Part shown: piece by piece, positions 46,047 to 62,193 of the stretch
Layout of the letters: the number at the start of each line of letters is the position of its first letter
Numbering within the stretch: position 1 is the stretch's first letter
Assembly: GCA_934462925.1 (NCBI GenBank)
Contig: CAKSIT010000014.1
Location: 9,950-73,949 of the forward strand
Origin: an uncultured Oscillospiraceae bacterium
Lineage (GTDB): Bacteria > Bacillota > Clostridia > Oscillospirales > Ruminococcaceae
Reading direction: 5' to 3'
Length of the DNA: 64,000 nucleotides
The notes under the pieces: generated by a model
Told to the model about the DNA's origin: nothing
Seen by the model: the letters and a program-made list of their open reading frames with translations, nothing else
Databases searched by the model: none
Made by a program: the position numbers and the translations under genes

Positions 46047-47216
46047 TCAGCCGTTGAGCAGGTCAAGCAATATTGCAAGTCCCTTGTCAATTTCCTCGTA
46101 GGTTATGGTAAGCGGCGGCAGAAGCCTTACGCGCGTTTTGGCTGTAAGCAGCAGCAGCCCCTTGTCGAGAGCCGCCTTTACAATATCGCCCGCTTTTTTC
46201 GTCTTAAGCTCAATGCCTATCATAAGCCCAAGACCGCTTACTTCCGATACCTCGGGGCTTGTAAGCAGCTTTTCGCGGATATAAGCGCCCTTTTTCGCAG
46301 CCTCGTCAAGGAAGCCCTCTGCAAGCACCGTGTCAAGCACAGCAAGTCCGCCCGCGCAGGAAATAGGGTTGCCGCCGAACGTAGAGCCGTGCGTTCCCGC
46401 GGTGAGAACGCGTGCGCATTTCTCGCCCGAAAGGCACACGCCAATAGGCACGCCGCCCGCCAGTCCCTTTGCAAGGGTGGTGAGGTCCGCCTTTTTTCCG
46501 TAGTGGTCGCCCGCAAGCAGCCTGCCCGTCCTGCCGACGCCCGTCTGTACCTCGTCGGCAATGGTAAGCACGTCCTTTTCAGCGCACAGGCGGAATATCT
46601 CGTCAACAAACGCGGGGTCGAGCGCCATTACGCCGCCCTCGCCCTGCACGTACTCAAACATTACCGCGCAGACCGTGTCGTCGAGCTTTGCGCGCAGGTC
46701 GTCGATGTTGTTGGCTTCAACGTTGATAAAGCCCTCTACGAACGGGAAGAAGTAGTTGTGGAAAACGTCCTGACCCGTTGCGGAAAGCGTGCAGAGCGTT
46801 CTGCCGTGGAATGAGTTTACAAGGGTAATTATGTTGTGCCTGCCCTTGCCGTATTTGTCAAAGCTGTACTTGCGCGCTATCTTTATCGCGCACTCGTTGG
46901 CTTCCGCGCCGCTGTTGCCAAAGAACATATCGGTGTAGCCCGCAGCCTCGCAAAGGCGCTTTGCAAAGTCTGCCTGTACCTTTGTGTAGTAGTAGTTTGA
47001 GGTGTGCTGGATTTTGTGCGCCTGCTCGCATACGGCGTTCACCCACGCTTCGTTGCAGTAGCCAAGCGAGTTTGTGCCGATGCCCGAGCCGAAGTCGATG
47101 TACTCCCTGCCGTCCTCGTCGTGCGCGGTGCGGCCGCTGCCGCTTTCAAGCACAAGGTCGTACCTGCCGTAGGACGGCATAACGTATTCGTTGAACTGTT
47201 CTATAGTCTTGCTCAT
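46047..47216 (-). CDS. argD: Acetylornithine aminotransferase
   Basis: A 389-residue class III PLP aminotransferase, fourth step of ornithine synthesis. FGNSGAEANE and NSFHGRTLCTLSATGQ are typical; the PLP-binding DEVQTGVGRTG and the Schiff-base Lys in TLAKGLAGGVPIG are present. argB starts upstream by 12 bp, so the genes are in one operon. Confidence 0.95.
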   Translation of the reverse strand: MSKTIEQFNEYVMPSYGRYDLVLESGSGRTAHDEDGREYIDFGSGIGTNSLGYCNEAWVNAVCEQAHKIQHTSNYYYTKVQADFAKRLCEAAGYTDMFFGNSGAEANECAIKIARKYSFDKYGKGRHNIITLVNSFHGRTLCTLSATGQDVFHNYFFPFVEGFINVEANNIDDLRAKLDDTVCAVMFEYVQGEGGVMALDPAFVDEIFRLCAEKDVLTIADEVQTGVGRTGRLLAGDHYGKKADLTTLAKGLAGGVPIGVCLSGEKCARVLTAGTHGSTFGGNPISCAGGLAVLDTVLAEGFLDEAAKKGAYIREKLLTSPEVSEVSGLGLMIGIELKTKKAGDIVKAALDKGLLLLTAKTRVRLLPPLTITYEEIDKGLAILLDLLNG

Positions 47217-47228
47217 GCCGCGCCTCCT

Positions 47229-48083
47229 TTACGGTACTATCATCGTGCCTGCGCCGACGTTCGTCAGCAGCTCTATAAGTATTGAATGCGGTATCCTGCC
47301 GTCTATTATGCTTGTATGCGGAACGCCGCGCCTTACCGCTTCAACGCAGCACTCAATCTTCGGAATCATGCCGCCCGAGATTATGCCTTGTTTTTTGAGG
47401 TAGGGAACATAGCTTACGCCCACCTCGCGGATAAGCGTGGAATCGTCGTCCTTGTTTTCAAGCAGGCCGCGTATGTCGGTAAGCAGAATGAGGTTCGCGG
47501 CTTTCATCTCCGCTGCGATACGCGCCGCTGCGGTGTCGGCGTTAATGTTGAACACTGTGCCGTCCTTTCCGCGCGCCACTGTTGAGATAACAGGAATATA
47601 GCCGTTGCTGAGCGAATCGAAGATGATTTTGGGGTTCACCTGCGTTATGTCGCCCACAAAGCCAAGGTCGGGGTTGAGCATCTGCGCCTCGATAAGATTG
47701 CCGTCAAGTCCGCATAAGCCCACGGCCTTGCCGCCGCGGCTTTCCAACAGGGAAACAAGGTCCTTGTTGACCTTACCCGCAAGCACCATCTGCACAATGT
47801 CGATAGTTTCCTCGTCGGTATAGCGCAGGCCGTTCACAAACTTGCTTTCCTTGCCCGTTTTCTTAAGCATGGCGTTTATCTCAGGGCCGCCGCCGTGAAC
47901 CAGTACCACCTTGATACCGACAAGCGACAAAAGCACTATGTCCTCCATGACGGCCTGCTTTAGTTCCTCGTTCGTCATGGCGTTGCCGCCGTATTTCACG
48001 ACCACTACCTTGCCGTTGTATTCCTGCAGGTAGGGCAGAGCCTCTATCATAACGTGGGCTCTTACATCGTAATCTATATTCAT
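47229..48083 (-). CDS. argB: Acetylglutamate kinase
   Basis: A 284-residue amino acid kinase that phosphorylates N-acetylglutamate, the committed step of arginine synthesis. VVKYGGNAM (phosphate loop), VLVHGGGPEIN, and NINADTAAARIA are diagnostic. The N-terminal extension (MNIDYDVRAHVMIEALPYL) is the kind found in arginine-feedback-inhibited hexameric NAGK, so allosteric inhibition by arginine is plausible. Confidence 0.96.
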   Translation of the reverse strand: MNIDYDVRAHVMIEALPYLQEYNGKVVVVKYGGNAMTNEELKQAVMEDIVLLSLVGIKVVLVHGGGPEINAMLKKTGKESKFVNGLRYTDEETIDIVQMVLAGKVNKDLVSLLESRGGKAVGLCGLDGNLIEAQMLNPDLGFVGDITQVNPKIIFDSLSNGYIPVISTVARGKDGTVFNINADTAAARIAAEMKAANLILLTDIRGLLENKDDDSTLIREVGVSYVPYLKKQGIISGGMIPKIECCVEAVRRGVPHTSIIDGRIPHSILIELLTNVGAGTMIVP

Positions 48084-48108
48084 CTGCTTCCTCTTTCCTT
48101 TTTGCCCC

Positions 48109-49344
48109 TTAGGTGCGGTACTCCGCGTTTATCTTTACATACTCGAACGTAAGGTCGCAGCCCCATGCGATAGCGCCGCCCTCGCCGTCGTGCAGGTCTA
48201 TAAGTATCTTTATCTCGTCCTCGGAGAGTATCTCCTTTGCGGCGTCCTCGGAGAACTTTATTCCCGCGCCGTCGGTGCATACCGTAAGCTTGCCCTTAAC
48301 GCTTGCAAGCTCTACGGAAACCTTGTTGATGTCGAAATCCGCCTTCGCATAGCCGATAGCGCAGAGAATGCGTCCCCAGTTTGCGTCTGCGGCGAACATT
48401 GCCGCCTTAAGCAGGCTGGACGAAATAACGCTCTTTGCAACGATTTTTGCGGTTTCCTCGGTGGGCGCGCCCTTTACAATGCACTCGAGGAGCTTTGTCG
48501 CACCCTCGCCGTCGCGCGCAGTTTCGCGCGCAAGGTTCATCATAACCGCGTAAAGCGCGTTCTCAAATATCTCGTAGTTCTTGTCCTCGCAGGTTATCTC
48601 GGGGTTCTTTGCAAGACCCGACGACATAAGCACCAGCGTGTCGTTGGTGGAGGTGTCGCCGTCCACACTTACCATGTTATAGGTAACGTCGTTTACTTTC
48701 CTTAGCGCCTTTTCGAGCATAACGCCGCTAATTGCGGTATCGGTGGTGATGAACGCGAGCATTGTCGCCATGTTCGGGTTAATCATGCCGCTGCCCTTGG
48801 AAATGCCGCCGATGTGGCACTTCCTGCCGTCTATCTCGAACTCCACGGCAATTTCCTTTTTGCGCGTGTCGGTCGTCATTATCGCCTCGCACGCCTCAGA
48901 GCTTTTCTTGGGCGACAGCGACTGCACAAGCGTAGGAATGCGCTGCTTGATGGGTTTTATGCTGAGCTTCTGCCCGATAACGCCCGTTGAACCCACGATT
49001 ACGTCCTCGGGGTCGATGTCGAGCGCCTGCGCGGTAAGCTCGCACATTTCCTCGGCTATTTCAATGCCGTTGTCGTTGCAGGTGTTGGCGTTTCCGCTGT
49101 TTACGATAATCGCCTGCGCGTAGCCGTCGGCAAGGTGTTTTTTCGTTACGATAATGGGCGCGCCCTTTACCTTGTTGGTGGTGTAAAGAGCCGCCGCGCG
49201 GCAGCGCTCCGCACAATAAATGAGCGCAAGGTCGCGCTTGGTGGTGTTGCCCGCCTTAATTCCGGCGATAACGCCCGCCGCGGCAAATCCCGCCGCAGCG
49301 CATACGCCGCCCTCTACAAAATCAAATCCTTCAAACTTAACCAT
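48109..49344 (-). CDS. argJ: Bifunctional glutamate N-acetyltransferase/amino-acid acetyltransferase
   Basis: A 411-residue ArgJ, which recycles the acetyl group from acetylornithine to glutamate. It is a self-cleaving enzyme: the cleavage site motif NPNMATMLAFITTD with its nucleophilic Thr is at about residues 190-205. AAAGGAG precedes the ATG. The presence of ArgJ explains the lack of argA and argE. Confidence 0.96.
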   Translation of the reverse strand: MVKFEGFDFVEGGVCAAAGFAAAGVIAGIKAGNTTKRDLALIYCAERCRAAALYTTNKVKGAPIIVTKKHLADGYAQAIIVNSGNANTCNDNGIEIAEEMCELTAQALDIDPEDVIVGSTGVIGQKLSIKPIKQRIPTLVQSLSPKKSSEACEAIMTTDTRKKEIAVEFEIDGRKCHIGGISKGSGMINPNMATMLAFITTDTAISGVMLEKALRKVNDVTYNMVSVDGDTSTNDTLVLMSSGLAKNPEITCEDKNYEIFENALYAVMMNLARETARDGEGATKLLECIVKGAPTEETAKIVAKSVISSSLLKAAMFAADANWGRILCAIGYAKADFDINKVSVELASVKGKLTVCTDGAGIKFSEDAAKEILSEDEIKILIDLHDGEGGAIAWGCDLTFEYVKINAEYRT

Positions 49345-49355
49345 TGCCGACTCCT

Positions 49356-50297
49356 TTATATAAGACCTGTTTTTTCATCAATGCCCATCATAATGTTCAG
49401 GCATTGTACTGCCGCGCCGCTTGCGCCCTTGCCAAGGTTGTCAAGGCGCGAGCAGATAACCATGCGCTCGTCGTTGCCGTTTACAAACAGCTCCATGCGG
49501 TTAGTGCCGCTAAGGTCGTTTGCGCCTATAAAGCCGTCGAGCGGCTCGCCCTCGGGCATTACCGTTACAAAATACGAGTTGTTCGCGGCGTAATACTCCG
49601 CAAGCGCCTTTCTCACGTCGGCGGGGGAGTACTTCTTTGCAAGCAGGCGGGTGTGTATCGGAAGGGTAACCACCATTCCGCTGAAATAGTCGCACACCTG
49701 CGGGTTGAACGCGGGCGCGTAGTCAAGCCCGCATATCTTCTGCATTTCTGGCAGGTGCTTGTGCTGCTGCGAAAGCGCGTACTGGCGGGGGCTGTCGAAC
49801 GACGCGGGTCTGTCCGTGCCCTCGTACACGGCGATAGCCTTTTTGCCCGCGCCGCTGTAGCCCGACACCGCGTGAACGCTCACGGGGTAATCCGCAGGCA
49901 TAATGCCAAGCTTTACAAGCGGGTACACCATAGAGCAAAAGCCGCTCGCATAGCACCCGGGGACTGCAACGCGGTCGCCCGAAGCTATTTTTTCGCGGAA
50001 CTGCGCGCCAAGCTCGGGGAAGCCGTAAGCCCACGCGGGGTTTGTGCGGTGCGCGGTGGAAGCGTCGATAATGCGCGCGCTGCCGCCCTCTGCAAGCGCT
50101 ACCGCTTCGATAGCGGCGGCGTCGGGCAGGCACAGAAACGTGAAGTCTGAGGCGTGGATAAGGCGTCTGCGCTCGTCCGCGTCCTTGCGCTTTTCCTCGG
50201 CAATGCGAAGCAGCTCAATATCGGTGCGGTTTTTGAAGCGCTCGAGTATCTTAAGACCTGTTGTGCCTTCCTGACCGTCGATATATACCTTAACCAT
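49356..50297 (-). CDS. argC: N-acetyl-gamma-glutamyl-phosphate reductase, short (type 2) form
   Basis: A 313-residue reductase with the NADP loop VYIDGQEGTTGLKI, the active-site VPGCYASG (catalytic Cys), and HAVSGYSGAGKKA. It fits the shorter AGPR type 2 family rather than the common ~345-residue type. ATG 50297 is preceded by AGGAG within argH, and argH overlaps by 8 bp, so the genes are coupled. Confidence 0.93.
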   Translation of the reverse strand: MVKVYIDGQEGTTGLKILERFKNRTDIELLRIAEEKRKDADERRRLIHASDFTFLCLPDAAAIEAVALAEGGSARIIDASTAHRTNPAWAYGFPELGAQFREKIASGDRVAVPGCYASGFCSMVYPLVKLGIMPADYPVSVHAVSGYSGAGKKAIAVYEGTDRPASFDSPRQYALSQQHKHLPEMQKICGLDYAPAFNPQVCDYFSGMVVTLPIHTRLLAKKYSPADVRKALAEYYAANNSYFVTVMPEGEPLDGFIGANDLSGTNRMELFVNGNDERMVICSRLDNLGKGASGAAVQCLNIMMGIDEKTGLI

Positions 50298-51681
50298 TGC
50301 AAAGCTCCTCCAGACGTTTTTTAGTGAGCGCCACCTGCTCCTTAACGCACTCGGGCGCAGGTCCGCCAAACGACTTTCTCTCGCGCACGCAGGTGTCAAG
50401 GCTTATTGCCTCGTACACGTCCTCGCCGAAAAGCTCGCTCTGCGCGCGGTAGTCGGCAAGGGGCAGCTCCTCGAGCGTTGTGCCGAGGTCTATGCAGTGC
50501 GCGACAAGTCCGCCCGTAATTTTGTACGCGGTGCGGAACGGCATACCCTTTTTTACAAGGTAGTCCGCGCAGTCCGTAGCGTTTATGAAGCCCTTTGCAG
50601 CCGCGCGGCGCATATTGTCCTTGTAGAGCGTCATTGTTTCAAGCATGGGAATGAACGTTGTAAGGCAAAGCTTCAGGTTGTCCACTGCGTCGAATATCGC
50701 TTCCTTGTCCTCCTGCATATCCTTGTTGTACGCAAGGGGAAGCCCCTTCATCATTGCAAGAAGCGTTACGTTGTCGCCGATAACGCGCGCGGTCTTTCCG
50801 CGGATAAGCTCGGTAACGTCGGGGTTCTTCTTCTGCGGCATAATGCTGGAGCCTGTGGAGAAGCGGTCGGAAAGCTCGATAAACTTGAACTCCCAGCTGC
50901 ACCACATGATTATTTCCTCGGAGAAGCGCGACAGGTGCATCATACAGATAGAAACAGCGCTTGCAAGCTCAATGCAGAAATCGCGGTCGGAAACGCCGTC
51001 GAGCGAGTTTACCATAGGCGCGCTCATGCCGAGAAGCGAAGCGGTGCGCGCGCGGTCTATGTGATATGTAGTGCCTGCGAGCGCGCAGCTGCCGAGCGGG
51101 GACGCGTTCATTCTGCGAAGCGTATCGTCAAAGCGCTCTATATCGCGCAGAAGCATCTGCGCATACGCCATCATGTGGTGACCGAACGTTATCGGCTGGG
51201 CGCGCTGGAGATGTGTGTAGCCCGGCATGATAGTATCCGCGTTCTCGTCTGCGATGCCGCAAAGCACCTTGACAAGAGATACCACAAGCTCGCGCAGTCC
51301 CTTGATTTCGTCGCGCAGGTAGAGCCTTATGTCAAGCGCCACCTGGTCGTTTCTCGAGCGGGAGGTGTGCAGGCGCTTACCCACATCTCCAAGGCGGTTT
51401 GTAAGCTCCGCCTCGATAAACATATGGATATCCTCAGCGGTCATGTCGAACTGCAGCTTGCCGCTTTCTATGTCGGCGAGTATTTCTTTCAGCCCGCCGA
51501 TAAGCTCCAAGCTGTCGCTCATGCTTATTATGCCCTGTTCTCCGAGCATGGTCGCGTGAGCAATGCTGCCCTCGATGTCCTGCCTGTACATTCTTCCGTC
51601 AAACGCTATCGAAGAATTGAACGCGTTCACCCTGCTGTCAACGCCCTGCGAGGAACGTCCAGCCCACATCATCTGTGCCAT
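50290..51681 (-). CDS. argH: Argininosuccinate lyase
   Basis: A 463-residue fumarase/aspartase-superfamily enzyme releasing arginine and fumarate. TSRSRNDQVALD, PGYTHLQRAQP and the signature loop GSSIMPQKKNPD are present. The start is ATG 51681 (AGAGG upstream). A 289-bp gap with a hairpin repeat separates it from argG. Confidence 0.96.
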   Translation of the reverse strand: MAQMMWAGRSSQGVDSRVNAFNSSIAFDGRMYRQDIEGSIAHATMLGEQGIISMSDSLELIGGLKEILADIESGKLQFDMTAEDIHMFIEAELTNRLGDVGKRLHTSRSRNDQVALDIRLYLRDEIKGLRELVVSLVKVLCGIADENADTIMPGYTHLQRAQPITFGHHMMAYAQMLLRDIERFDDTLRRMNASPLGSCALAGTTYHIDRARTASLLGMSAPMVNSLDGVSDRDFCIELASAVSICMMHLSRFSEEIIMWCSWEFKFIELSDRFSTGSSIMPQKKNPDVTELIRGKTARVIGDNVTLLAMMKGLPLAYNKDMQEDKEAIFDAVDNLKLCLTTFIPMLETMTLYKDNMRRAAAKGFINATDCADYLVKKGMPFRTAYKITGGLVAHCIDLGTTLEELPLADYRAQSELFGEDVYEAISLDTCVRERKSFGGPAPECVKEQVALTKKRLEELCNG

Positions 51682-51732
51682 ATCTAACCTCTTTATTACT
51701 GCTTTATTCTGCCAAAACGGCAGTAAAACCAA

Positions 51733-51917
51733 TTTTGCCCGCATACGCGGGCTTTGAAATTACTTTTTTGCCTCGGGCTAAAGGCGACTGCGTCGGCCTG
51801 GCTGAGGCAAAAAACACTTCTATCCGCACAAGTGTGTACGCGACGCTGCGCTTACGCAACCGTGCGCGCAGGGCGGATGTTTCGTCGGAAAACCCCCGTC
51901 TGGGGGTTTTCCGACGG
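51733..51917 (+). repeat. Dispersed hairpin-mosaic repeat, copy A
   Basis: Within the argG-argH gap. In order: GCCCGC/GCGGGC palindrome, GCCTCGGGC...GGCTGAGGC stem, a conserved block containing GTGTGTACGCGACGCTGCGC and TTACGCAACCGTGCGCGCAG, and a GTCGGAAAACCCCC/GGGGGTTTTCCGAC hairpin. The same blocks in the same order occur reversed at 63679-63904. No protein frame is conserved beyond that expected from the DNA similarity. Confidence 0.9.
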
Positions 51918-51970
51918 TTTAAGAGCGGGAAACGCTGCGAGCTTTTCCCGCTCTGAAAAAATCTACCCGA

Positions 51971-53197
<1,227 letters not shown>

Positions 53198-53239
53198 GAT
53201 AGTTCTCCTTTCCTTTATGGAAAAAATATTTACATTCAT

Positions 53240-53267
53240 ATTATACACCCTTTTTCGCAAATGTCAA
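53240..53267 (-). promoter_or_regulatory. Promoter of argG, with nearby ARG-box-like sequence
   Basis: Minus strand TTGACA (53262-53267), 16 bp, TATAAT (53240-53245). ATGAATGTAAATATT overlapping the -10 and an 11-bp palindrome GAATAATATTC at 53402-53412 resemble half or full ArgR operators, but neither is a full consensus match. The rest of 53268-53466 is AT-rich and gene-free. Confidence 0.6.
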
Positions 53268-57267: not shown

Positions 57268-58632
57268 ATGGAACAGACAGAAAAACACGCGGCAGGGGAT
57301 TTCACGCAGGGCGCGATATTCCCGAAGCTGCTGCGCTTTATGACCCCGATACTGGGCGCGCTTGTGCTGCAGGCAATGTACGGCGCGGTGGACGTGCTTG
57401 TGGTCGGGCGCTTTGGCTCTGACGAGGCTATCTCGGCGGTGTCCACGGGCAGCAACATAATAAATATGGTAGTGTTTACTGTGGCGGGGCTTGCAATGGC
57501 GGTAACTATTCTTATGGGGCGGTGCTTGGGCGAAAAGCGCCCCGAGCGCCTTGGCGGCGTACTCGGCGGTGCGGTAGTGCTTTTCGGCATTATCTCTGCG
57601 GCGCTTACCGTGGTGCTGCTTGTGTTCGCAAAGCCGCTTGCGGTGCTTATGCAAGCGCCCGCGCAGGCGCTTGAGCTTACGGTGCAGTATGTGAGAATAT
57701 GCGGCGGTGGAATAGTGTTCATAATATTCTACAACCTTATAAGCAGCATATTCAGGGGGCTTGGCAACTCAAAGCTGCCGCTTCTTTTCGTGCTTATTGC
57801 TTGCGTTGTGAATATCGTGGGCGACCTGCTGTTCGTTGCGGTATTCAAAATGGACGTTGCGGGCGCGGCGTTTGCAACGGTGCTAGCGCAGGCGGTGAGC
57901 GTGGGACTTTCGGTGCTAATCATACGCAGGCAGAAGCTGCCGTTCAGCTTTTCGCTTTCGGATATACGCTTTAACAGGGAGATACCGCTGATACTGAAAA
58001 CGGGCGCGCCCATTGCCGTGCAGGAGATACTCACGCAGCTGTCGTTTTTGGCGCTATGCGCGTTCATAAACAAGCTCGGGCTTGAGCAGTCCTCGGGCTA
58101 CGGCGTTGCAAACAAGCTTGTGTCGTTCATTATGCTTGTGCCGTCGTCGCTCATGCAGTCCATGTCGTCGTTTGTTTCGCAGAACTACGGCGCGGGCAAG
58201 GAGCGCCGCGCGCGGCGTTCAATGCTGTGCGGCATGGCTATAGGCGCTTCGGTGGGTGTGGTTATCGCGGCGTTCGCGTTCTTCAAGGGCGACCTTATGT
58301 CAATGGCGTTCACCAAAGACCCTGCGTACATCGAGCAGTCCGCCGCGTACCTTAAGGGCTTTGCGGCAGAGGCTGTCGTAACGAGCTTTCTTTTCAGCTT
58401 TATCGGCTACTTCAACGGTCACGGGCAGACGCTTTTCGTGATGATACAGGGGCTGTCGCAGACGTTTCTCGTGCGTCTTCCCATGTCGTATATCATGAGC
58501 GTACAGCCCGACGCTTCGCTTACGATGATAGGCCTTGCAGCGCCGAGCGCGACGGTTTTCGGCATTCTGTTGAACCTTGCGTATTACCTTATTTATACAA
58601 AAAAGCACCCCGCAGAGCGCCTTGAAGCGTGA
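57268..58632 (+). CDS. MATE-family efflux transporter
   Basis: A 454-residue multidrug and toxin extrusion protein with about twelve hydrophobic helices. The opening FPKLLRFMTPILGALVLQAMYGAVDVLVVGRF and FVSQNYGAG are typical of the NorM/DinF branch. ATG 57268 is 10 bp after the GNAT gene. The exported substrate is unknown. Confidence 0.9.
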   Translation: MEQTEKHAAGDFTQGAIFPKLLRFMTPILGALVLQAMYGAVDVLVVGRFGSDEAISAVSTGSNIINMVVFTVAGLAMAVTILMGRCLGEKRPERLGGVLGGAVVLFGIISAALTVVLLVFAKPLAVLMQAPAQALELTVQYVRICGGGIVFIIFYNLISSIFRGLGNSKLPLLFVLIACVVNIVGDLLFVAVFKMDVAGAAFATVLAQAVSVGLSVLIIRRQKLPFSFSLSDIRFNREIPLILKTGAPIAVQEILTQLSFLALCAFINKLGLEQSSGYGVANKLVSFIMLVPSSLMQSMSSFVSQNYGAGKERRARRSMLCGMAIGASVGVVIAAFAFFKGDLMSMAFTKDPAYIEQSAAYLKGFAAEAVVTSFLFSFIGYFNGHGQTLFVMIQGLSQTFLVRLPMSYIMSVQPDASLTMIGLAAPSATVFGILLNLAYYLIYTKKHPAERLEA

Positions 58633-58704
58633 TTGCAGGTGAAAAAGTAAATATATATCCTCAACAGCACAGAAAAGATTTTGTGTAAATTCTATAAAAA
58701 CGCC

Positions 58705-58733
58705 TTGACACCGCAGGGCGTTTTTGCTATAAT
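58705..58733 (+). promoter_or_regulatory. Promoter of the FtsK/SpoIIIE-like gene
   Basis: TTGACA (58705-58710), 17 bp, TATAAT (58728-58733). A leader of about 70 nt follows. Confidence 0.85.
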
Positions 58734-58807
58734 TAAGGTGGTATCATATGGCGGGTGAATCGTCCGCCGAAGAACGCAGCCAAGCGCTGAAATTAAGGAG
58801 AAAGAAC

Positions 58808-61800
58808 ATGGCAGACAATCTTGCAAATACCGTACTGGCGAAGTTCACCGCCCTCAACGACGAGTATAACGCGATAATCACCGAGTCTGAAACGGACCTT
58901 AAGGAGTACAACGACTACTGCAATCAGAGCGATAACGACCTGTCCGAAAAGCTATCGGAGATACGCGCGAAGATATCCCGCGTAAACGAGTTTATGGAGT
59001 ACGCGCGCGCTCACGCTACCGACCTTGAAGAAGCGGAGATGGCGTTTGAAACGGAAATGGACGCGCTTGAAACGCTGCGCTCGCAGATAGACCCGAAGTC
59101 TGAAAACGACTACCACGCGGAAACGCTTTACACAAAGGCTTCCGCGCAGAAGCTGATTTACGAAGCGGACATGGAGCGCACCACAAAGAAGATAAACGGC
59201 AGCAAGGTGCAGGCAAAGCGTATGCTTGACCACCAGCACAGCGAGCTTGACGCGCGCAGGACAAAGCACGCGAAGGAGTTCAGAGAGTACATAGCATCCG
59301 ACGAGTTTAAGGGCTACATAAAGTCGCTTTCGTCAGACGCGGCGGCGTTCAACAGCTCGGGCACGTCAAAGCTTGCCGTGGATACTCAGATATCGCTCGG
59401 ACAGCGCAGGGTAAAGCTGCCCGTTCCCATGGAGTTCGACGAGGAGCTGTCGCTTTCGACAGGCGGCGTGTTCAACTCTGCGGCAAAGACGATAGGCGTG
59501 CCGTTTTCGATTGACGTGAACGGCGGCTGCGCGCTTTACGTTGAGTACGACAAGCGCAACGAGAGCTATATGCTCGGCGGCATTCAGCGCTTTTTGCTTA
59601 ATATCCTCAAATATTACGGCGAGGGTCTTGACGGCATTTTCTTTGCAGACCCCGTGCATTACAGCGCAGACGGCTTAGGGCATATCGCGGCGCTTTCCAA
59701 GGGCATAAACTCGATTATCGACAATATCCCCGAAAACGCCGAGGCGCTCAAAGCGCGCTTTGAGGAGCTTAAGGGCGCGCTCGTCCCCGCGGAGGGCGTA
59801 AGCGGCGTTAAGCGCGTGTTCATGTTCCACGGCTACCCCGAGGGCTACGACGAGCAGACCCGCGCGGAAATAAAGCAGCTTGCGGAGGACGCGCAGAAGT
59901 ACGGCGCGGTAGTAGTTGTAACGCACCCGTCAAGCTCGAACGGCGCGGAGCAGTCCGTTGACGACGTTGAGAGCGAGAGCGCTTTCAGAAGCTGCGCCGA
60001 CATAATCAAAACACGCAACGGCGGCTTTTATGTTGAGAAAACGCGCGACAGCCTTTTCTGGTATTCAGCGCCGTCCGACCTTCCCGGCGATATCCGCCAG
60101 ACGTTTATTGAGGTGCGCCGCCGCAACGCCGCACAGAATATGGCGCGCGCGGCTCAGACAGCGCAGGCAGCGCCTGTTGCACCCGCTGCGCCTGTAGCAC
60201 CTGCTGTACCTGTTACACCTGCAGCTCCTGCTGCGCCTGCTGCACCTGTTATGCCCGCTGCACCTGTCGCACAGGTCGCACAGGTCGCACAGGTCGCACA
60301 GGTCGCACCTGTCGCACCTGCCGAGGTACAATCCACGCCTGCCGCACAGCCTGTGACCCTGCCCGCTTCGCAGCCAAAGCCTGTCGTGGTGCAGCCTGAC
60401 GAGGTTCAGCCCGCGCCCGCAGAAGCAATCGCCGAAAAGGCGGATACCGAAAGCCCCGCTGACAGCGCGCTCCCCGCGTACAGCAAGGGTAACAGGGCGC
60501 TTTGCGGCATTCCCTGCGGAACTGACCCCGAGGGCGCAGAGGTTGCGTTCGGCCTTGAAAACGTTGCGTTTGTGTGCGCTACTGCGCGCGCAGGGCGCGA
60601 ATCGTTCCTGCGAAATATCATAGGCGGCATTGTATCGCAGTATCACCCCGACGACGTGGAACTCTGGCTTGCGGATTTCAGCGGCTGCATGGGTAAGCTT
60701 GAAGCATTCTCCGCGCCGCACGTAAGATACGCCGTAAGCGGCTGCGTAAGAAGCGGCGCAAGCGGAAAAATGCTCGTGCGCGCGCTTATCGACAGACTTA
60801 CCGAGGTTCTTGAAAAGCGCCTTGCGCTCTACCGTGCGGACGCTTCCGCAGCGGAATATTCGCCCACGCTTGCAGCCGTTATAGACGGCTTTACAGAGGC
60901 GTGCGCGGGGCTTCCCGAGGAGTACGCGGCAAAGCTTGCGCGCCTGTTCTCGCAGGGGACGGCGGTAGGAATGCGCTTTGTGCTTGCGGACGACGCGTAC
61001 ACGGTGAACGGCACAGTTCCCGCGTACTTTGCGGGCGGCGCTGTACGTCAGGGCGTTGCCATGAGCAGCGCAGACTCCAGCATTTCCGCGCTTTTTGACG
61101 GAATCATGCTTACCCCCTCCGACAAGTCCTCCGTTGCGAATATACCGCTTCACCATGCGTTCATTCGCACGGATAAGGAGATAAACGGCTCGTATCTGCG
61201 CCTTGCCAAGATTCCCGAGCTTTACCCCGCGGAAAAGCTTGCTGAGCTTTGCGCGCAGATAAGCGGCGAAATGCAGCAGAGCGCGCAGTTTGAGCCGAAC
61301 GACGTTCACGCGTACCTTTCAAAGCGCCCCGTTTTCGCAGGCGGCGCAGCGCGCAGCTTTGACGAGGCGCGCCTTGCCCTCGCAGAACACAGCGGCGGCG
61401 CGAAGCGGCTCTATGTTGGCACGCCCTGTTCGATGCTTGCCGGCGAATACCCAATAGTGCTTGCGGACAGGTTTGGCGGTAACGTGCTTGCACGCTGCGC
61501 TGACGCGGACGGCGTGATGTCCGCAGCGGCGGGCGCGGCGTTCTCGTGGGCGGCGCAGGGCGGCGAGGTCGTGCTTGCGGCTTCGTGCGACAACGAGCAG
61601 CTTGCAGCGCTTGCAGGGTGCGACGCGCTTTCGCAGGCTGAGGCCGTATCGGAGCTTTCCGAGCTTTGCGGGCAGATAAAGCAGATAAAGAGCGCAATAA
61701 TGTCGGGCGTTCCTGCTGACAGGCTGACGATAATTTTCGGCGCGGACCTTATGCTTGACGAGATGTCAACGCTCACCGCTGAGGGCTTTGCGGGAAGATA

Positions 61801-62032
61801 CGACGCGCGCGCCGACCTTGAGTTCATACTCTCGCAAGGACCGCGCCTCGGCTATCACTTTATGCTGATTTCCGAGCGTGACATTGCGCAGGGCGCGGCT
61901 GCGGCAAGCCTTAAGAATGTGCTTGTGCAGGACGGCGAGATTTTCACGCTGACGAACGGGCAGCGCACGGCGGCGCTTGTTCCTTACGAGTTTGGCTTTG
62001 ACGCTGCGCAGGCGCAGGATTACCTTTATTAA
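58808..62032 (+). CDS. FtsK/SpoIIIE (EssC)-like protein with degenerate ATPase motifs
   Basis: A 1074-residue protein. Residues 1-190 are coiled coil. At about 225-435 lies an FtsK-like domain without a P-loop (VPFSIDVNGGCALYVEYD, then GIFFADPVHY). Residues 449-530 are an Ala/Pro/Val linker with four VAQ repeats. At about 560-800 a second FtsK-like domain keeps the fold (FLRNIIGGIVSQYHPDDVELWLADFSG, then LAAVIDGFTEA), but ARAGRES stands where GxxGSGKS is expected and the Walker B acid pair is altered. At about 865-1060 a third, more diverged module follows. No membrane helix is visible. It looks like a non-hydrolysing relative of the EssC/FtsK motors. Start ATG 58808 has TAAGGAG. Confidence 0.75.
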   Translation: MADNLANTVLAKFTALNDEYNAIITESETDLKEYNDYCNQSDNDLSEKLSEIRAKISRVNEFMEYARAHATDLEEAEMAFETEMDALETLRSQIDPKSENDYHAETLYTKASAQKLIYEADMERTTKKINGSKVQAKRMLDHQHSELDARRTKHAKEFREYIASDEFKGYIKSLSSDAAAFNSSGTSKLAVDTQISLGQRRVKLPVPMEFDEELSLSTGGVFNSAAKTIGVPFSIDVNGGCALYVEYDKRNESYMLGGIQRFLLNILKYYGEGLDGIFFADPVHYSADGLGHIAALSKGINSIIDNIPENAEALKARFEELKGALVPAEGVSGVKRVFMFHGYPEGYDEQTRAEIKQLAEDAQKYGAVVVVTHPSSSNGAEQSVDDVESESAFRSCADIIKTRNGGFYVEKTRDSLFWYSAPSDLPGDIRQTFIEVRRRNAAQNMARAAQTAQAAPVAPAAPVAPAVPVTPAAPAAPAAPVMPAAPVAQVAQVAQVAQVAPVAPAEVQSTPAAQPVTLPASQPKPVVVQPDEVQPAPAEAIAEKADTESPADSALPAYSKGNRALCGIPCGTDPEGAEVAFGLENVAFVCATARAGRESFLRNIIGGIVSQYHPDDVELWLADFSGCMGKLEAFSAPHVRYAVSGCVRSGASGKMLVRALIDRLTEVLEKRLALYRADASAAEYSPTLAAVIDGFTEACAGLPEEYAAKLARLFSQGTAVGMRFVLADDAYTVNGTVPAYFAGGAVRQGVAMSSADSSISALFDGIMLTPSDKSSVANIPLHHAFIRTDKEINGSYLRLAKIPELYPAEKLAELCAQISGEMQQSAQFEPNDVHAYLSKRPVFAGGAARSFDEARLALAEHSGGAKRLYVGTPCSMLAGEYPIVLADRFGGNVLARCADADGVMSAAAGAAFSWAAQGGEVVLAASCDNEQLAALAGCDALSQAEAVSELSELCGQIKQIKSAIMSGVPADRLTIIFGADLMLDEMSTLTAEGFAGRYDARADLEFILSQGPRLGYHFMLISERDIAQGAAAASLKNVLVQDGEIFTLTNGQRTAALVPYEFGFDAAQAQDYLY
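60266..60301 (+). repeat. Four tandem 9-bp units in the linker of the FtsK-like gene
   Basis: GTCGCACAG x4 (encoding VAQ x4), followed by near-copies GTCGCACCT. In-frame and likely variable in number between strains. Confidence 0.85.
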
Positions 62033-62041
62033 ACAAATCGT

Positions 62042-62071
62042 CCCCCTGCTGAATTTAGCAGGGGGCGTTTT
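62042..62071 (+). terminator. Terminator of the FtsK-like gene
   Basis: CCCCCTGCT-GAATTT-AGCAGGGGG followed by CGTTTT. Confidence 0.8.
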
Positions 62072-62164: not shown

Positions 62165-62193
62165 TTGAAATTTCCGCGCAGATGTTGTATAAT
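62165..62193 (+). promoter_or_regulatory. Promoter of tyrA
   Basis: TTGAAA (62165-62170), 17 bp, TATAAT (62188-62193). Confidence 0.75.

Follow-up and report, generated by a model that had tools for sequence, protein, structure and literature searches.

Can a protein built like an FtsK/SpoIIIE motor be kept by a bacterial lineage after its ATP-binding sites have gone, and if so, in what role? This question is raised by a gene at positions 58808..62032 (plus strand) of a 64,000-nucleotide stretch of DNA, here called the window, from an uncultured Oscillospiraceae bacterium. The gene encodes a protein of 1074 amino acids plus a stop, which the original prediction, made from the sequence alone, described as an FtsK/SpoIIIE-like protein that appeared to have lost every Walker motif. 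From computational comparison of the protein with its homologs, we think it probable that it is a catalytically dead descendant of an ATPase like those of the type VII secretion system (T7SS), acting now as a soluble, nucleotide-independent scaffold outside a secretion operon.

Three RecA-like domains without a canonical P-loop

In a structure model of the whole protein (mean pLDDT 82.7, pTM 0.52), an N-terminal helical hairpin (residues 1–190; 58808..59377), with helices at residues 2–67, 84–93, 102–162 and 165–182, is followed by domain 1 (D1; residues 191–452; 59378..60163), a disordered linker (residues 453–555; 60164..60472), domain 2 (D2; residues 556–832; 60473..61303) and domain 3 (D3; residues 833–1065; 61304..62002), all on the plus strand. 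The linker is rich in Pro and Ala, with pLDDT below 50 across most of residues 451–551; the long helical N-terminus and the Ala/Pro-rich linker that had been predicted are both borne out by the model. For the N-terminus, the Pfam scan gave no FHA or membrane match and the model consists of long helices. D1, D2 and D3 each adopt the RecA/FtsK motor fold, which is also the fold of the tandem EccC ATPase domains, as judged against the lists of structures compared. The FtsK/SpoIIIE-like character of all three domains was thus correctly anticipated, and the EssC/EccC-like domain order is borne out for D2–D3.

None of the three domains has a P-loop. In D2, the degenerate sequence CATARAGRES (residues 590–599; 60575..60604, plus strand) places ATARAGRES where the P-loop should be, between strand 586–590 and helix 597–611 of the model, with Arg597 at the place of the Walker lysine. 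The D2 Walker B, LAAVIDGF (residues 688–695; 60869..60892, plus strand), is also degenerate: within VIDGF the Asp is kept and the Glu is replaced by Gly. In D1 a helix follows strand 241–247 without a P-loop at its place, and none accompanies strand 893–896 of D3.

About 75 proteins make up the unnamed family to which this one belongs. Searching 5.8 billion proteins found 74 relatives, and a second search with a 34-row alignment found 74 members (73 of the first 74, without P0039, plus the new P0075) and ten other proteins; both searches scored only the approximately 8,000 candidates sharing most words, drawn from the first 500 residues. The family has a sharp edge, with members scoring at least 800 bits and FtsK/EssC-type proteins at most 54 bits. 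Most members are nameless, and those with names are all "hypothetical protein" of Oscillospiraceae or Ruminococcaceae. A 75-row family profile reaches solved EccC (4nh0, E 9.6e-18), EssC and FtsK structures through D2. No paper on the family was found among the matches listed from open-licence PMC papers, with the window protein PADLOC returned no match at E ≤ 0.01, and scans of genome contigs and viral contigs with the single sequence returned no relative.

Degeneracy of D2 extends across the family. In an alignment of 73 members (A2; the partial P0073 and P0074 were dropped and P0075 was not aligned), 69 members have Arg and four have Lys in the Walker lysine column, the Gly before it survives in 18 and is Glu or Asp in 54, and the following Ser/Thr column holds Thr in 12 and Ser in one. 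The Walker B Asp column reads Asn in 47, Asp in 15, Ser in six and Glu in five. A canonical P-loop is found at the D1, D2 or D3 places in none of the 73 rows, nor did the family show an intact one at any unexpected site; the pattern [AG]xxxxGK[ST] occurs in nine members near residues 180, 702 or 962, away from the P-loop places. By comparison, W620, D623 and R671 are invariant in all 73. D1 has its own conserved loop in place of a P-loop (D248, R250, N251, Y254, G257, G258, R261, N265, K268 and Y269), and 51 of the 58 invariant columns lie within residues 1–438.

Walker-intact relatives and the origin of the family

Genome searches returned six relatives with intact Walker motifs: L057 (genome G145), L058 (G128), L092 (G255), L093 (G216), L100 (G875) and L101 (G604). 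The other matches, where read, were mostly FtsK- or EssC-like, the reading being partial. Each of the six carries one canonical P-loop, in the middle domain that matches D2, and the same single P-loop is found in all 15 rows of a wider ATPase alignment (A4), L057 included. D2 of the window protein is the counterpart of this P-loop-bearing domain. Because D1 and D3 lack a P-loop in the Walker-intact relatives too, only the P-loop of D2 would have been lost by the family itself, and it is very likely, from these sequences, that D1 and D3 were P-loop-free before the family arose. The claim that every Walker motif had been lost therefore holds for the absence of P-loops and for the family-wide decay of D2, but not for D1 and D3, where no P-loop was lost in this lineage.

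The closest relative is L100, which is collinear with the family over residues 9–1136 (936 columns; hhalign probability 100%, E 2e-54). Part by part, it matches the hairpin at 24.5 bits, D1 at 29.7, D2 at 164.2 and D3 at 65.2 (iE 2.4e-7, 5e-9, 4.9e-50 and 7.7e-20, respectively, in a set of 262 proteins). L100 has GASRSGKST and VILDEFS where the window protein has ATARAGRES and VIDGFT, and both share HPD(N/D)VELWLADF. L092 matches D1, D2 and D3 but not the hairpin, and for L057, L058, L093 and L101 the similarity is mainly to D2. When profiles of the hairpin and D1 were compared with the remoter ATPases of A4, no match resulted; this gap is bridged by L092 for D1 and by L100 for both parts. In a midpoint-rooted tree of D2, built without L093 and the later EssC domains, the family forms one clade (support 100/99) with L100 as its sister (88/91), and the two together fall on the side of the coiled-coil ATPases, apart from the first EssC domain and FtsK (100/100).

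Walker-intact relatives occur in a setting that resembles a T7SS. L092, L093, L100 and L101 are followed by two helical proteins of 87–116 amino acids, which L057 and L058 lack. For three of these eight small proteins, the top Pfam family is WXG100 (E 0.005, 0.0003 and 0.0004), all under the cut-off, and the other five have no WXG100 match in Pfam. After the small pair, a papain-fold toxin domain (Gln_amidase) is encoded at L092 (E 3e-8) and L100 (E 2e-8), and at L101 the Peptidase_C39_2 family is matched weakly (E 0.0007). Pfam identifies vWA, PP2C and kinase genes at L092 and L101; by eye, FHA-, AAA-, PP2C- and kinase-like genes are present at L057 and a kinase-like gene at L093. Coiled-coil FtsK-type ATPases in such a T7SS-like arrangement (L100, 8172–13980; L092, 5211–15031; L101, 3776–13373) merit their own survey in Clostridia. 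The D2 domains of L092 and L057 also match the FtsK-like mad8 and SspH models of PADLOC, which we did not adopt as a sign of defence.

Within the 43 genomes of the Oscillospiraceae genus in which the family gene is common, no Walker-intact coiled-coil ATPase is among the matches. Matches there from outside the family cover D2 only and lie in FtsK-sized frames or in frames truncated at contig ends, apart from one EssC-sized frame of 1538 amino acids in G498.

Selection, expression and genomic setting

The family gene is present in 32 of these 43 genomes, several of whose records bear gut-sample names, and in one copy per genome in 12 of 12. It becomes rare further out: in samples of genomes taken at the family and order levels, it was found in seven of 396 and two of 394, respectively, with the eighth family-level match being the relative in G145 and the two further order-level matches being L100 and L101.

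We estimated omega by the Nei-Gojobori method for 21 loci and the window, using the 26 of 231 pairs with dS < 1.5. Omega was 0.09–0.28 in 25 pairs and 0.41 in one (L001–L021), and was below 1 in all four protein parts of all 26, with the hairpin evolving slowest in 25. The family gene in these relatives is under purifying selection.

A consensus sigma-70 type promoter, TTGACA-17-TATAAT (58705..58733, plus strand), precedes the window gene and matches in 12 of 12 positions with a 17-base spacer, in agreement with the near-perfect promoter proposed earlier. Such a promoter is conserved in the family: 25 of 29 members match at 12 positions, three at 11 and one (L010) at nine, leaving aside L018 and L025, where the match does not begin at residue 1. 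Of 426 further genes from these loci and the window, 13 match at 12 positions and 16 at 11; their starts were taken as the first start codon of a mechanical open reading frame (ORF) and so are misplaced in some cases, while the starts of family genes come from homology. Across L001–L030, the consensus promoter is kept at distances of 66 to 178 bases from the start, giving 5' leaders of differing length. An Rfam scan of 58400–58900 gave no match.

Although the reading frame is already open from ATG 58748 (ORF 58748–62032), the most likely start is 58808, since Met at this place is more than 90% conserved in the family and AAGGAG (58795..58800, plus strand) lies seven bases ahead of it as a ribosome binding site. 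Of 21 family loci listed, 20 have AGGAG ahead of the start. The start at 58808 in the original prediction is therefore to be preferred.

By eye, an inverted repeat (AAAAACGCC..GGCGTTTTT; 58696..58725) encloses the -35 box; it is absent from the list of the terminator scan and possibly represents the terminator of the upstream MATE gene. With its T-run, this region (58696–58733) may be one in which a MATE-gene terminator and the promoter overlap. On the 3' side, the terminator scan found a terminator-like hairpin at 62042..62065 (plus strand). This fits the proposal that the gene is transcribed alone, but such hairpins number seven against 6.1 in shuffled sequence, which is no excess. Ahead of the next gene, for a prephenate dehydrogenase, stands TTGAAA-17-TATAAT (62165–62193; 11 of 12 positions).

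In the window, the gene is preceded by genes for M42 peptidases, an acetyltransferase and the MATE protein. The 30 other family loci, many of them cut by contig ends, have different neighbours, again housekeeping genes: murC-like and pepV-like genes at 23, VanY at 19, and Hpt-like and HD response regulator genes at 11. By eye, the conserved neighbours include argS, yfhO-like, NUDIX, spoVG, murC and pepV; by Pfam, they include VanY, the HD response regulator, HAD hydrolase, DivIVA, class I tRNA synthetase, RNB, SecG and transketolase, the Hpt-like protein having no Pfam match. The gene thus holds its position inside a lineage but forms no functional operon that can be seen, and we did not adopt housekeeping genes as partners. 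At strict Pfam thresholds, no WXG100 gene was found among eight window neighbours and ten conserved neighbours, of which all eight and nine, respectively, matched some other Pfam family, and no T7SS genes were seen among the neighbours scanned. So far, then, the suggestion of a subunit of an unrecognised system finds nothing in the neighbourhood to build on. Elsewhere in the window, 46047–53260 (minus strand) holds a likely arginine biosynthesis cluster (argD, argB, argJ, argC, argH and argG, by eye).

Possible roles and known systems

How might such a protein work? The ancestor would have been T7SS-like, combining a helical hairpin, a P-loop-free D1, an active D2 and a P-loop-free D3. The gene would then have departed the secretion operon to become a single chromosomal copy with its own promoter. 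The very conserved hairpin and D1 may bind a fixed partner, and D2–D3 may have been retained as a RecA-like platform for docking or oligomerisation, as proposed for the degenerate EccC/EssC domains, with the flexible linker connecting the two halves. By analogy with those domains, the family protein would act through binding alone. Most likely, then, it does not turn over ATP and serves as a scaffold that oligomerises and holds a partner; a pseudo-ATPase scaffold, as first suggested, appears to be the likeliest role for a family in which D2 is degenerate throughout. The DNA binding suggested with it is disfavoured, since the window protein is acidic (pI 4.8; 95 Lys and Arg against 142 Asp and Glu). 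A bolder picture, which we hold somewhat less likely than not, is of a whole secretion motor domesticated as a nucleotide-free structural protein: having lost its last active site, the coiled-coil ATPase would have left a toxin-delivery operon, acquired a fixed location and a consensus promoter, and become a near-core component in one Oscillospiraceae genus, where it would form a static ring or platform for some client.

Several observations weigh against the reading of a dead, T7SS-derived scaffold. The join of the family with L100 is supported by 88/91 only, and an earlier tree that included L093 set that long branch with FtsK/EssC (89/81). Four of the 73 members (P0047, P0049, P0050 and P0051) read GKNGEDKT, keeping Lys-Thr at the end of the P-loop, so that some residual nucleotide binding is conceivable in them. 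The bias of conservation toward the N-terminus may partly be a product of searching with the first 500 residues, and a pTM of 0.52 means that the arrangement of the domains is not fixed by the model. The window's own gene is in none of the 26 omega pairs, and its codon use ranks 20th among 42 window genes, which is no sign of an abundant protein, so we do not claim high abundance. Finally, no neighbour gene is specific to the family.

RecA-like domains often pack into rings, and the protein could be a dead subunit in a mixed ring with the cell's own FtsK/SpoIIIE, or an adaptor bringing cargo to it. In all 12 carrier genomes examined, the strongest PF01580 match is a frame of FtsK/SpoIIIE size (821–983 amino acids), weaker matches having been read only in part, and one carrier (G005) has a separate EssC-like gene pair. 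However, FtsK is near-universal and the pseudo-ATPase was found in only two of the 394 sampled genomes of the order, which argues for no specific link between them and makes this explanation unlikely.

Equally unlikely, in our judgement, is that the protein still serves as a substrate-binding part of a T7SS-like system, with genes for WXG100-like clients at other sites in the genome. Pairs of small helical proteins follow four of the six Walker-intact relatives, EccC/EssC ATPase domains are described in a passage of PMC11217815 as binding WXG100 signal sequences, and one carrier, G003, has two WXG100-like genes and only an FtsK-like protein as a strong PF01580 match. Against this, PF06013 matches occur in 30 of the 43 genus genomes (over the cut-off in five), but in ORFs shorter than 140 amino acids in only two of 32 carriers (G003 and G005) and one of 11 non-carriers (G498), in a search that could miss very divergent clients; the other frames have at least 356 amino acids. 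For the WXG100 protein of G003 that was searched, the remaining 42 genomes gave no relative. The pseudo-ATPase and WXG100 clients therefore do not appear to be generally linked. The three longer frames read, of 628–675 amino acids in G001, G008 and G010, were rejected as clients, looking by eye like chemotaxis receptors. The G003 genes (L102, 2577–7830) are two of 103 amino acids each (E 0.001 each) with a protein kinase and a PP2C gene alongside; this genome, which is possibly incomplete, gave no EssC-like match. At L091 (G005:C5:28000-46000), the EssC-like pair of 1060 and 578 amino acids, both with P-loops, lies beside WXG100-like ORFs.

Nucleotide might still be bound or slowly turned over through an altered site in which Arg597 works with Asp623, Arg597 being kept in 69 of 73 members, Asp623 in all and Lys-Thr in four. 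We regard this as improbable: the Walker Gly is Glu or Asp in 54 members, the Walker B Asp is absent from 58, and in EccC5 a DUF domain with a similar GEREQVL stretch does not bind ATP, according to a passage of PMC11154593. Although a long basal branch (1.3 changes per column) leads to the family in the D2 tree, a relic decaying on its way out is hardly credible and was rejected, since the 26 omega pairs indicate constraint, with omega below 1 throughout, no internal stop in any family match listed and a conserved promoter.

The preferred reading, a dead T7SS-like ATPase retained as a scaffold, can be set beside known systems. From FtsK/SpoIIIE DNA translocases the window protein differs in having no P-loop, no match to the FtsK gamma and 4TM models, and a PF01580 score of 15 bits against a cut-off of 24 (22 of the 34 members of alignment A3 match PF01580 at E ≤ 0.01). 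The NCBIfam models TIGR03928 (18.4 of 778.4 bits) and TIGR03925 (18.9 of 346.55 bits) are likewise far below cut-off. Unlike EccC, which keeps an active first domain (a passage of PMC11154593), and EssC, the family has no active domain, FHA match or T7SS genes among the neighbours scanned. Degenerate EccC/EssC domains bind ATP poorly or not at all, and regulation, contact between protomers and signal binding have been proposed for them (passages of PMC11154593 and PMC11217815). In the EccC5 DUF domain (PDB 8rin), as described in the former, the GEREQVL stretch forms a helix whose Arg pairs with an Asp; its Gly-Glu-Arg-Glu at the P-loop place resembles the G-[DE]-R-E seen in many members of the family, although the motif is one residue shorter and the domain is part of an otherwise active protein.

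The Walker-intact relatives come closer to a mobile, YueA-like T7SS ATPase with three FtsK/HerA-like domains of which only the middle one is active (a passage of PMC3482391): they too have three such domains with a P-loop only in the middle one, and L092, L093, L100 and L101 adjoin gene pairs of WXG100 size. The footnote of that paper concerns other phyla and the passage does not mention an N-terminal hairpin; in the family of the window protein even the middle domain is dead, and no WXG gene was seen beside the gene. The gene sets of the relatives are also similar to those of T7SS variants whose components include a kinase, a PPM phosphatase and vWA proteins (a passage of PMC11217815). Degenerate domains are common in T7SS ATPases, but there alongside an active domain, whereas here all three are dead, in an unstudied protein kept by 32 of 43 genomes of one genus. 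Such a family, with Walker-intact sisters, would allow a direct comparison of what RecA-like domains and the hairpin do beyond ATP hydrolysis.

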